Shown here in pieces: positions 12,389 to 16,208 of a stretch of DNA of 32,976 bases. The DNA lies in NCBI GenBank assembly GCA_020629695.1, contig JAHDCV010000044.1, forward strand, positions 1 to 32,976, written 5' to 3'. A program made the translations under genes and the position numbers. The notes beneath the pieces were generated by a model. That model searched no databases. It had not been told where the DNA came from and saw only the letters and a list, made by a program, of their open reading frames with translations. The first letter of the stretch is position 1; the number at the start of each line of letters is the position of its first letter. The DNA is from Acidimicrobiales bacterium. Lineage in GTDB: Bacteria > Actinomycetota > Acidimicrobiia > Acidimicrobiales > SZUA-35.

Positions 12389-13795
12389 ATGACGATGCAG
12401 GTGCTCTTCGCCACCGCCGAGATGGCCCCGGTCGCCCGCGTCGGCGGCATGGGTCTCGCGACGGCGGGGCTCGTCAAACAGCTTCGCGCCGATGGCGTGG
12501 ACGTGACCGTGGTCCTGCCGGACTACGGCGACGCCGAACTCGCCGACGAGACGTCGTGGGACCTCGACGTGCCGGCCTGGTGCGGCCCGACCCGAGCCCG
12601 ACGTGGGCGGCTCGTGATCGACGGCGGTCTCGACGAGCACGAGATCGTGTTGGTCGATCGAGCCGGTCTCGCTCGCCCCCACCCCTACGTCGACCCCACG
12701 ACGGGCACGGCGTGGCCCGACAACGACTGGCGGTTCATCGGATTCGGTGCGGCGGTCGCGGCGCTCACCCGGCAGCTCGAACCCGACGTGCTCCACCTGA
12801 ACGACTGGCACACCGCCGCCGCCGTCGGATTTCTTCCGGCGCCCCCGCCGATCGTGTTGACGATCCACACGCTCGGATACCAGGGGGTCACGAGCGCGGA
12901 CTGGCTCCAGCGGTTCGAGGTCGAGCCGTGGCGCTTCGTCTGGTACGACGTGGCGAATCCACTGGTGGGAGCCATCCGGGCTGCCGACCGCATCATCGCG
13001 GTCAGTCCGAACTACGCCCGCGAGATCCTCACCGAAGAGCAGGGCATGGGCATGCACCACGAGCTGGCCGCCCGTGGTGAGGCAGTGGTCGGCATCCTCA
13101 ACGGCATCGACACCGCCGAGTGGAATCCCCGACTCGACCCCGTCCTGCCGACGACGTACGGAGAGACCGACATCGACACCGGTCGCGCCGCCGCTCGTGC
13201 CGCACTGTTCGAGCGGGCCGAGTGGCACGACGACGGCGGCCCGTTGCTCGGTGTCGTGACCCGGCTGGTCGATCAGAAGGGGGTCGACCGGATCCTCGGA
13301 TTGGCGCCGTACCTCGAATCGATGGGAGCTCGGCTCGTCATCCTGGGCTCCGGCACGCCGGATCTGACCGACTGGGTCCGCCATGAGGCGGCGGCCCGAC
13401 CGGACCGGATCTGGGCCGAGACGTCACGCTACGACGAGCCGCTCGCCCACCTGATCTTCGCCGGCACCGACCTGTTCCTCATGCCATCCCGGTTCGAGCC
13501 GTGCGGGCTCGCCCAGATGCAGGCGATGGCCTACGGCACGTTCCCGGTCGCGACGCCGGTGGGTGGACTCGTCGACACGATCGTCGACGTCGACGCCGAC
13601 CCGCGTCGGGGAACCGGAATCCTGTGTCACACGGCGGACACCGCCGGACTCGTCGATGGGGTGCACCGTGGCATCCGGGCGCTGCGCGTGGCCAGCCGAC
13701 GTCGGGCGATGCAGAAGCGGGGCATGACCCACGACTGGAGCTGGTCGGCGCCGGCCGCCGAGCACGTCCGGGTGTATCAGTCGGTCCAGCGGTAG
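12389..13795 (+). CDS. glgA: Glycogen synthase (GT5)
   Basis: Transfers glucose from ADP-glucose to the growing alpha-1,4-glucan. It has 468 residues and two Rossmann domains. Seen are '[18 protein letters not shown]' at the N-terminus, '[17 protein letters not shown]', '[12 protein letters not shown]', '[13 protein letters not shown]', '[13 protein letters not shown]', '[14 protein letters not shown]' and '[15 protein letters not shown]' with E370, the conserved catalytic-site glutamate. The usual donor-binding lysine of 'KTGG/KVGG' is replaced by R17 ('ARVGG'), a conservative but unusual change. The start is ATG 12389 behind a GGGGACAGGA ribosome site, 24 bases after glgX. The last 19 bases overlap the 3' end of glgC on the opposite strand. 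Confidence 0.93.
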
Positions 13796-15018
13796 TTCTT
13801 CGGTACGACCGTCACACCCTCGTCCGACACCGTGAAGCGTCGGGCGTCGGCCACGGGGTCGACCCCGATCTGCTTCCCGTCGGGGATCACCGCGTTCTTG
13901 TCGATGATGCAGCGTCGCAACGTCACATTCGCACCGATCGTCACGTTGTCCATGATGATCGCCTGATCGAGCCTCGCGCCCCGACCGAGCCGGGCGGCCG
14001 GGGAGATCACACTCATGCGGACGTCCGCGCCCGACACGATCGCACCGTTGCTCACGATCGAGTTCTCCACGTGGGGTGCCTGGTCGCCGTCCTTCACGAA
14101 CTTCGCCGGCGGCATCGATCGCCCGTAGGTCCAGATGGGCCAGTCGTCGTTGTAGAGACTGAAGTTGGGCAACGGTTGCACGAGGTCCATGTGGGCATCG
14201 AAGAACGAGTCGATCGTGCCGACATCCCGCCAGTAGCCCCGGACCCGGTCGTCGTCGCCGGGCACGATGTTGGTCGTGAAGTCGTAGACGTGGGCTTCGC
14301 CCTTGTCGACGAGGCGCGGAATGATGTCCCCACCGAGGTCCGAGCCGCTCTCGGCGTCGGCCGCCTCCTCCTCGAGGACCTCGACGAGCACGTCCGTGTC
14401 GAACACGTAGTTGCCCATCGAGATCAAGGTCTCGTCGGGTGAGTCGCTGAGACCGGGTGGGTCCTCCGGCTTCTCGATGAAGGCGTCCATCGTCGTGCCG
14501 GTGCCCCGCCGGATGCAGCCGAACTGCCAGGCCTCGTCCCGTGGGACGCGGATGCCGGCGACCGTCACGCCAGCGCCCGACTCGATGTGCTGGTCGAGCA
14601 TCTGGCGCGGATCCATGCGGTAGATGTGATCGGCGCCGAAGACGAAGAGGTACTTGGGACGCTCGTCCTCGATCAGGTTGAGGTTCTGGTAGATCGCGTC
14701 GGCCGATCCCTGGAACCAGTGCTTGCCCCGACGCATCTGGGCCGGAACCGAGGTGACGTAGTTGCCGAGGAACGACGAGAGCCGCCACGTCCGGGACACG
14801 TGCACGTCGAGCGAGTGCGACTTGTACTGGGTGAGCACGACGATCTTGCGGTATCCACCGTTGGCGAGGTTCGACAGTGCGAAGTCGATCAGGCGGTAGT
14901 GGCCGCCGAACGGGACGGCCGGCTTGGCTCGGTCGAGCGTCAACGGTGCGAGGCGTTTGCCCTCACCACCGGCGAGCACGATGGAGAGGACATGCGGTCG
15001 GGCAGACGGTTCGAGCAC
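13777..15018 (-). CDS. glgC: Glucose-1-phosphate adenylyltransferase (ADP-glucose pyrophosphorylase)
   Basis: Makes ADP-glucose and pyrophosphate from glucose-1-phosphate and ATP, the committed step of glycogen synthesis; normally an allosterically controlled homotetramer. With GTG 15018 as start the protein has 413 residues, near the family norm of about 400-430. Motifs: '[13 protein letters not shown]' (nucleotide loop), '[20 protein letters not shown]', '[12 protein letters not shown]', 'FIEKPEDPP' and '[16 protein letters not shown]', then a C-terminal left-handed beta-helix with '[15 protein letters not shown]' and '[12 protein letters not shown]'. An ATG 13 codons earlier (15057) is possible, but the GTG has CAGACT 6 bases before it, the leaderless pattern used elsewhere here, and lies close to the first conserved strand. 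The gene is convergent with glgA and overlaps it. Confidence 0.95.
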
Positions 15019-15024
15019 GGTTCG

Positions 15025-15030
15025 AGTCTG
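15025..15030 (-). promoter_or_regulatory. Candidate leaderless -10 (CAGACT) deciding the glgC start
   Basis: On the minus strand CAGACT is followed by six bases (CGAACC) and GTG 15018. The identical hexamer at the same spacing precedes the aminotransferase start at 29462. If it is used, the annotated ATG at 15057 lies upstream of the transcript. Confidence 0.45.
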
Positions 15031-15183
15031 CCTCAACTCGCGTCGCCGTGTCGTCATGGGCGGTCTCGGTCGTCGCCATGGGCGGTGACACCCTCGATGG
15101 TGAGGCGACCACCCTGGGTGATGTCGACCACCGCGCGAGGGAACTTGGCAGGATGATTGAAACCGACCACGCGATCGTGTTCA

Positions 15184-15268
15184 CTGGCGCCTGCGGGTAA
15201 CGGAGTTCCTGCGCCAGGCCCACCCCTCCGGCGGGTTGAGGCGGGCCGTCAATGGCAGAGGAACTCCG
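15184..15268 (+). ncRNA. Candidate structured RNA or leader element
   Basis: Three inverted repeats interlock. CTGGCGC (15184) pairs with GCGCCAG (15211-15217). CGGAGTTCCT (15201-15210), which lies in the loop of that hairpin, is a perfect 10-bp match to AGGAACTCCG (15259-15268), so the two pairings form a pseudoknot or act as alternatives. Between them GGCCC/GGGCC with CCTC/GAGG makes a further hairpin (15217-15247). This is dense for chance even in GC-rich DNA. It resembles no riboswitch family I know. It could be a small RNA, the leader of the YceI mRNA, or a small palindromic repeat element. Confidence 0.4.
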
Positions 15269-15275
15269 GTGTGGG

Positions 15276-15307
15276 GCCGGGCCTTCGGGCCCGGCTCACT
15301 CCCTTTT
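15276..15307 (+). terminator. UUCG-loop hairpin with short T run (terminator-like)
   Basis: GCCGGGCC-TTCG-GGCCCGGC is a perfect 8-bp stem with a UUCG tetraloop (15276-15295), extendable by two pairs, and TTTT follows at 15304-15307. On the plus strand it could end a small RNA from the element just upstream, or act as an attenuator for the YceI gene. Confidence 0.45.
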
Positions 15308-15395
15308 CCGGCATCACTCGTCCTTGCCGGCGTCGCTCATCGGCGGAGAGATCGCCGACGTTCGCGAACCGATCAGGGGTCGGCTCCGTCATGGA

Positions 15396-15427
15396 GGTCG
15401 GAGGAGCACATCGGATGCTCCTCGACC
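15396..15427 (+). promoter_or_regulatory. Stable hairpin just upstream of the YceI ribosome site
   Basis: GGTCG-G-AGGAGCA pairs with TGCTCCTCGACC: 12 bp with a single bulged G and a 7-base loop. It ends 16 bases before the CAGGAG ribosome site. It holds an AGGAG in its stem, so it might compete with or expose ribosome binding. Confidence 0.4.
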
Positions 15428-15458
15428 GATCACACCCCCGTCATCAGGAGATGCTCAG

Positions 15459-16208
15459 ATGAGCGCCATGTCCCGCACCACCAAGATCGCCCTCGGCGCC
15501 GGCCTCGGACTCGTCGTCCTCGTGGTCGGCGGACTCTGGTTCGGCGGCTACTTCAGCTCCGAACCCGAGGAACAGACCATCGAAGACGCCGTCGCTGCGA
15601 TCGGTGGCGACACCGGAACCGACGAAGAGACGACGACCGACGACGCGTCCCCAGCAGACGCCGCGGTGGAGATCACCTCGCTCGACGGGGTCTGGTCGGT
15701 CGTCTCCGACAGCGAGACGTTCGTCGGCTACCGCATCAACGAGGTCTTCACCGGCGGCCGGGACTTCGAGGCGGTCGGTCGGACCCCGGCCGTCACGGGC
15801 ACCTTCACCGGCGCCGGCACCGTGATCGAAGCGGTCGAGATCGCCGCGGAGCTGAGCGAGCTCGCCTCCGACTCGTCCTCCCGCGACGGCCAGGTCCGGC
15901 GGGTGCTCAACACGAGTGAGTTCCCGACCGGCACGTTCGTGTTGACCGCCCCGATCGACGTCGGCTCGATTCCGGCCGAGGGCGAGACCGTCCGAGTCGA
16001 CGCCACGGGCGACCTCACGATCAACGGCGTGACCCAGACCGTCACGTTCCCGCTCGACGCGGCGATCCAGTCCGGCCTCGTCATCGTCGTCGGGCAGATC
16101 GAGGTGCTCCTGAGCGACTTCGACGTCGAGACGCCCAGCGCGCCGATCGTGGCCTCGGTCGAGGACGACGCCAGGGTCGAGGTCAGCCTGATCTTCCAGC
16201 AGGGTTGA
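15459..16208 (+). CDS. YceI-family lipid/isoprenoid-binding protein, membrane-anchored
   Basis: A 249-residue exported protein. Residues about 8-31 are a single hydrophobic helix with a basic lead (SRTTK), acting as an uncleaved anchor or signal; 33-70 are an acidic, Thr/Asp/Glu-rich linker. Residues about 73-248 are the YceI lipocalin-like barrel: 'LDGVWSVVSDSETFVGYRI' opens it and 'LTINGVTQTVTFPLDA' with 'GQIEVLLSDFDVETPSAPI' closes it, all classic YceI signatures. Family members bind polyisoprenoids or amphiphiles in a hydrophobic pocket outside the cytoplasm. ATG 15459 is preferred because AGGAG lies eight bases upstream; ATG 15468 is also possible. The long structured leader suggests RNA-level control. 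Confidence 0.9.
   Translation: MSAMSRTTKIALGAGLGLVVLVVGGLWFGGYFSSEPEEQTIEDAVAAIGGDTGTDEETTTDDASPADAAVEITSLDGVWSVVSDSETFVGYRINEVFTGGRDFEAVGRTPAVTGTFTGAGTVIEAVEIAAELSELASDSSSRDGQVRRVLNTSEFPTGTFVLTAPIDVGSIPAEGETVRVDATGDLTINGVTQTVTFPLDAAIQSGLVIVVGQIEVLLSDFDVETPSAPIVASVEDDARVEVSLIFQQG

Follow-up and report, generated by a model that had tools for sequence, protein, structure and literature searches.

The described RNAs that come closest to the element reported here are the 6C RNA of actinobacteria (Rfam RF01066), the titrating RNAs of the CsrB/RsmZ type and, more generally, the trans-acting small RNAs of bacterial intergenic regions. 6C is a short RNA whose conserved loop motifs are rich in a single base, C, and RNAs of the CsrB/RsmZ type present one short motif, GGA, in mostly unpaired places and carry more than two copies of it. 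Intergenic small RNAs typically combine promoter-like blocks with a body of about 100 nt, invariant and mostly unpaired motifs and an end hairpin, often with a run of T. Actinobacteria are not known to have the classical RNA chaperones, and the Acidimicrobiales seem to have received little attention as regards small RNAs, as judged by the titles in the open-licence literature.

Here we analyse a DNA stretch of 32,976 nucleotides from an Acidimicrobiales bacterium (contig JAHDCV010000044.1; hereafter the window), which holds an intergenic element that shares traits with each of these systems. Similar to 6C, it would be a short actinobacterial RNA with conserved loop motifs dominated by one base, but its loops are G-rich and it consists of one rod and a terminator. 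Like CsrB and RsmZ, it repeats a short motif in mostly unpaired places, but this motif is GCGGG and occurs only twice. It also has the overall build of an intergenic small RNA, yet it belongs to no Rfam family and has been seen in one uncultured family only. A search of Rfam 15 with the window and six homologous loci returned no match at gathering score; a first, sequence-only reading of the window had not matched the element to a known riboswitch. When the window and two homologues were scanned permissively against Rfam, all matches fell below threshold; the strongest was to ncS011 on the minus strand of one terminator region, at 24.2 of 48 bits. The 6C model likewise gave no gathering-score match and a single sub-threshold one (20.8 of 47 bits), on the terminator of one homologue. 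By comparison with Rfam, we therefore regard the element as a candidate new family of stand-alone small RNA.

Results

The element and its main helix

The element lies between the divergent upstream gene glgC, encoding glucose-1-phosphate adenylyltransferase (13777-15057, minus strand; Pfam PF00483 and PF25247), and a downstream gene for a YceI-like protein (15459-16208, plus strand; PF04264), the start codon of which was chosen by us and is preceded by AGGAG. The sequence-only reading had described a 7-bp hairpin, CTGGCGC at 15184-15190 with GCGCCAG at 15211-15217, and had noted that ten bases of its loop, CGGAGTTCCT at 15201-15210, are the exact complement of AGGAACTCCG at 15259-15268; these letters and positions are correct. 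However, the reading of these pairings as knotted or mutually exclusive is not supported, as the 7-bp hairpin proved to be a product of chance with its 5' arm before the inferred start of the RNA. Perfect stems of at least 7 bp with loops of 3-25 bases arose in 88 of 300 dinucleotide shuffles of 160 nt, and 10-bp stems with loops of 3-60 bases in only 4 of 300, so that the hairpin is ordinary and the ten-base complementarity is not. In addition, the six testable pairs of the seven paired in 55.3% of cells in an alignment of ten sequences (A1) compared with 55.5% in shuffles, and we rejected this hairpin: its letters do pair, at chance level and without conservation. Its 5' arm, which ends ahead of the inferred start, touches the inferred -10 element. 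What had been taken for a pseudoknot pairing, between 15201-15210 and 15259-15268, is in fact the main helix of the element, which we call P1.

Inferred promoter and predicted terminator

Conservation among 28 homologous copies, anchored on their core, points to a promoter directly upstream. Genus-weighted information does not rise above 0.44 bits between -120 and -56, exceeds 1 bit at -35, -34, -12 and -11, and reaches 2.00 bits at +2 to +8. The window reads TTGAAA (15157-15162) followed after 17 bases by TTCACT (15180-15185), which we take as putative -35 and -10 elements with a start near 15192. ATTG occupies the place of the -35 element in 27 of the 28 homologues, the window included, and the -10 place holds TTCACT in 19 and TTTACT in three more. 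A generic sigma-70 scan of the window reported no promoter, TTCACT not being a site by its rule. With its 5' end placed at the onset of invariance and its 3' end at the T run, the predicted RNA spans 15192-15307 on the plus strand and measures about 115-116 nt.

Between the -35 and -10 blocks, 15 of the 28 homologues, from six genera, carry an inverted repeat, CAC-N5-GTG, whose spacer is variable in sequence. It begins 32 to 29 bases upstream of the RNA start, equivalent to about 15160-15175 in the window, and occurs in neither member of the window's own genus. By its form, this repeat resembles the operator of a transcription factor that binds as a dimer.

At the other end, the UUCG hairpin announced by the sequence-only reading is present (15274-15297), but with 10 pairs, nine of them G-C, instead of 8 bp. 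The TTTT said to follow it at once is found at 15304-15307, six bases past the strict stem; if the stem is extended to 15269-15302, as in the single-sequence fold, the distance shrinks to one base. All 28 copies have a hairpin of 10-20 bp that begins 0-10 nt past P1, compared with 8 of 1120 shuffles, and a run of at least four T within 25 bases past the stem occurs in 19 copies and is absent from nine. By sequence, the RNA thus has a terminator of its own, at which transcription is predicted to end. In one genome (G004; locus L034, 530 bases) the element is adjoined by hairpin-forming units of a similar kind, ATAGCTCTCTTGTTGGGTCTGCTGTCGCAG... and one close copy, which look like repeats or repeated terminators.

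Distribution of the element

In a DNA similarity search of 99 relatives, the whole element was reached only in a sister species (G001), where it is 84% identical and likewise lies between glgC and YceI; by score and coordinates, this copy corresponds to public contig JAHDBV010000111.1 (Acidimicrobiales bacterium isolate MAG-119). Upstream of glgC, other genera of the family have a core in common, UGCGGGUA...GGCGGG..., and then a hairpin. We aligned ten such sequences (A3), drew their structure by hand and built a covariance model (R1), which yielded 24 copies in 39 family genomes that were accepted after reading the promoter, the loop and the hairpin. Fourteen of these copies were outside the model, 11 of them with E-values of 2.2e-11 to 0.0088 and the remaining three (G013, G003 and G036) with E-values of 0.15 to 0.93. 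A second model built from the 24 sequences (R2) added four copies from genus g10 (E 0.007 to 0.16), and a third built from 28 (R3) added G032 (E 0.026) and G015 (E 0.23). Copies with weak E-values were accepted on their signature, that is promoter blocks, GCGGGTA, GGCGGG and hairpin. In total, 30 of the 39 genomes, representing 10 of the 11 genera of one Acidimicrobiales family, hold one accepted copy each, and each copy was read by eye.

Models R1-R3 found no copy in G005, G006, G010, G021, G023, G027, G030, G034 and G038. Since most of these genomes are 90-96% complete (seven of them; G021 is at 55% and G023 at 88%), some absences are probably real or reflect copies that are too divergent. 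A few further family copies may exist among the weak matches of the R2 scan, because G032 and G015 stood in that list and later proved good. Outside the family, no candidate survived inspection in 298 and 397 genomes of the order, 395 of the class, 396 of the phylum and 193 of the order (the last with R3). The sets have genomes in common and contain a few members of the family, and most of the scans scored only 11 to 24 candidates per genome, so that divergent copies could have escaped them. A strict DNA pattern that contained TTCACT, run on one genome for each of 84,980 species, matched 16 contigs, all of them Acidimicrobiales or Acidimicrobiia MAGs that correspond by score and coordinates to genomes already found.

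Several matches were rejected by eye as chance because in each the loop motif, the hairpin or the pair of promoter blocks was missing: L083 in G006, L087 in G038, L085 with L089 in G003, L088 in G013, L111 and G030:C105 in G030, and matches in G042, G275, G333, G365, G372, G062, G075, G522 and G1007. A pattern scan of viral contigs gave seven places, six scoring 15.3-21.0 bits with R2 and one unmatched up to E 1, which we also took as chance.

Conserved secondary structure and strand

The sequence-only reading had suggested looking for covariation in relatives, and the 10-bp pairing is indeed kept through compensatory changes. Between the window and G001, five of the ten P1 pairs still form although both bases differ, four are identical and one is broken. 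Across the 28 copies read on the plus strand (alignment A8), 534 of 584 pair cells (91.4%) are standard pairs compared with 70.5% in shuffles, which leave the relatedness among copies in place, and partners slid out of register pair at 36-48%. Both sides are changed in 114 cells, against 33.3 in shuffles and 12-29 with slid partners, and none of 500 shuffles reached 114; the number of pairs with a change on both sides is 15 of 22, against 11.3 in shuffles, and was reached by 2 of 500. Alignments A5 and A8 were fitted to the model, which favours the A8 figures. In the unfitted A3, a plain MAFFT alignment whose structure was hand-drawn from the same sequences, 89.0% of cells pair and 13 of 22 pairs are changed on both sides, with 0 of 500 shuffles reaching either value.

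These pairings suggest that the body of the RNA is an unbranched rod, P1-P2-P3. In the window, P1 is formed by 15201-15210 and 15259-15268, P2 by GGCCC at 15217-15221 with 15243-15247, as supported by the fold and the consensus structure, and P3 by CCUC at 15225-15228 with 15238-15241, a region that is paired slightly otherwise in the single-sequence fold. The same 28 copies read on the minus strand still pair in 485 of 584 cells. We consider it more likely that the RNA is the plus strand, because G-U cells outnumber A-C cells by 71 to 22.

Twin GCGGG motifs

Two motifs recur unchanged in all 28 copies: the 5' end carries GCGGGUA (15193-15199), and the apical loop carries GCGGG (15231-15235), the latter within GGCGGG in 27 of them. 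When the RNA is folded with its terminator, the predicted probability of being unpaired averages 0.75 for the 5' motif and 0.78 for the loop motif, compared with 0.28 overall; for the 5' motif in the core alone the mean is 0.95. Values below 0.5 were obtained for the loop motif in six of the 28 copies (G029, 0.05; G022, 0.23; four of genus g10, 0.42-0.49) and for the 5' motif in two. Because the motifs are invariant and mostly unpaired while most paired positions vary, the twin motif is most likely the working part of the RNA. The 5' CGGGU can also be set against the linker after the first arm of P1, where 84.6% of cells pair compared with 23.9-55.3% for slid positions. A pseudoknot at this place is possible but unproven, as its 5' side is invariant and covariation cannot test it.

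Discussion

We propose that the element is a new small RNA, stand-alone and about 115 nt in length, encoded on the plus strand, with its own promoter and an intrinsic terminator, and that it acts in trans through GCGGG seeds; taken as a whole, this account seems to us rather probable. The RNA would be transcribed from its own promoter between glgC and the YceI gene, its transcript would end at the intrinsic terminator, and the rod P1-P2-P3 would present GCGGGUA at its 5' end and, in its apical loop, GCGGG. The two motifs could then serve as seeds that pair with C-rich stretches of the UACCCGC type, in mRNAs or in some other RNA, and the RNA would probably be a regulator. That the element might be a small RNA beside a terminator was one suggestion of the sequence-only reading, and it has good sequence support in the covariation, the invariant 5' motif located 3' of promoter-like blocks and the hairpin that follows; the absence of an Rfam match and the single accepted copy per genome fit it as well. 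The same small RNA could instead use its twin GCGGG as protein-binding sites and titrate or scaffold a protein in the manner of CsrB, which we regard as possible but on balance doubtful. A protein site would explain the invariance of a motif kept at two places in every copy, amid paired positions that mostly vary, as well as a seed would, but two motif copies per RNA are fewer than Csr-type RNAs carry. We prefer base-pairing seeds over a protein site for the twin motif, and the possible 5' pseudoknot, which would hide one GCGGG, counts against the seeds. As a C-rich candidate partner, 6C was not found in the 39 family genomes by a search that reached its cut-off in none of 14 control genomes either.

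A cis-acting leader or riboswitch whose terminator controls the downstream gene, YceI in the window, was part of the sequence-only reading; the T run lies about 150 bases 5' of the chosen YceI start, and YceI is found 3' of the RNA on the plus strand in 12 of 28 contexts. However, the downstream gene varies among genera: an aminotransferase follows within 300 nt in six contexts and a DAO-family (glycerol-phosphate oxidase-like) gene in three, the next gene is on the other strand in G033 and G035, and in G002 (L120; G002:C78, RNA at 2010-2087), where the kinase and DAO-family neighbours are those of the congeners G012, G020 and G025, the RNA is inverted relative to them. G003, G013, G033, G035, G036 and G037 have other neighbours or contig ends, all of these counts resting on rough gene calls and some short contigs. 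A downstream gene constant in class and orientation, as expected of a riboswitch or cis-leader, was thus not found, and we consider a leader improbable. We give still less weight to a regulatory element on the minus strand, acting as a leader of glgC, the start of which is about 135 bases away. Fold energies alone favour that strand (z -4.03 for 15170-15312 compared with -2.62 for 15180-15312 on the plus strand, the lengths differing slightly), but the excess of G-U over A-C cells and the T runs lie on the plus side, and 17 of the 28 contexts have no glgC within 350 nt. Least credible of all, and close to negligible, is a repeat or mobile palindromic element of the REP or MITE kind. Strong inverted repeats and an intergenic position would suit it, and scattered copies had been named as the alternative to an RNA gene, but the window's own genome holds the element once by DNA similarity, the covariance models led to one accepted copy per genome (some weaker second matches being unread), and the G-U pairs are strand-specific.

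Returning to the trans-acting small RNA, an extension that we consider speculative and rather unlikely is that it serves as a lineage-specific global regulator, with one RNA per genome, two like seeds or two sites for one RNA-binding protein, and, in part of the family, control by a factor that binds CAC-N5-GTG inside the promoter. Conserved in 10 of 11 genera and bearing two invariant motifs that are alike, the RNA offers a handle on small-RNA use in actinobacteria, which are not known to have the classical chaperones, and metatranscriptomes can be searched for it directly with the covariance model. By eye, no reading frame is common to the 28 RNAs among their ATG and GTG frames (at most the first four of each). 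A long open frame in the window, 15252-16208, begins inside the RNA and continues into YceI, and is probably a by-product of high G+C.
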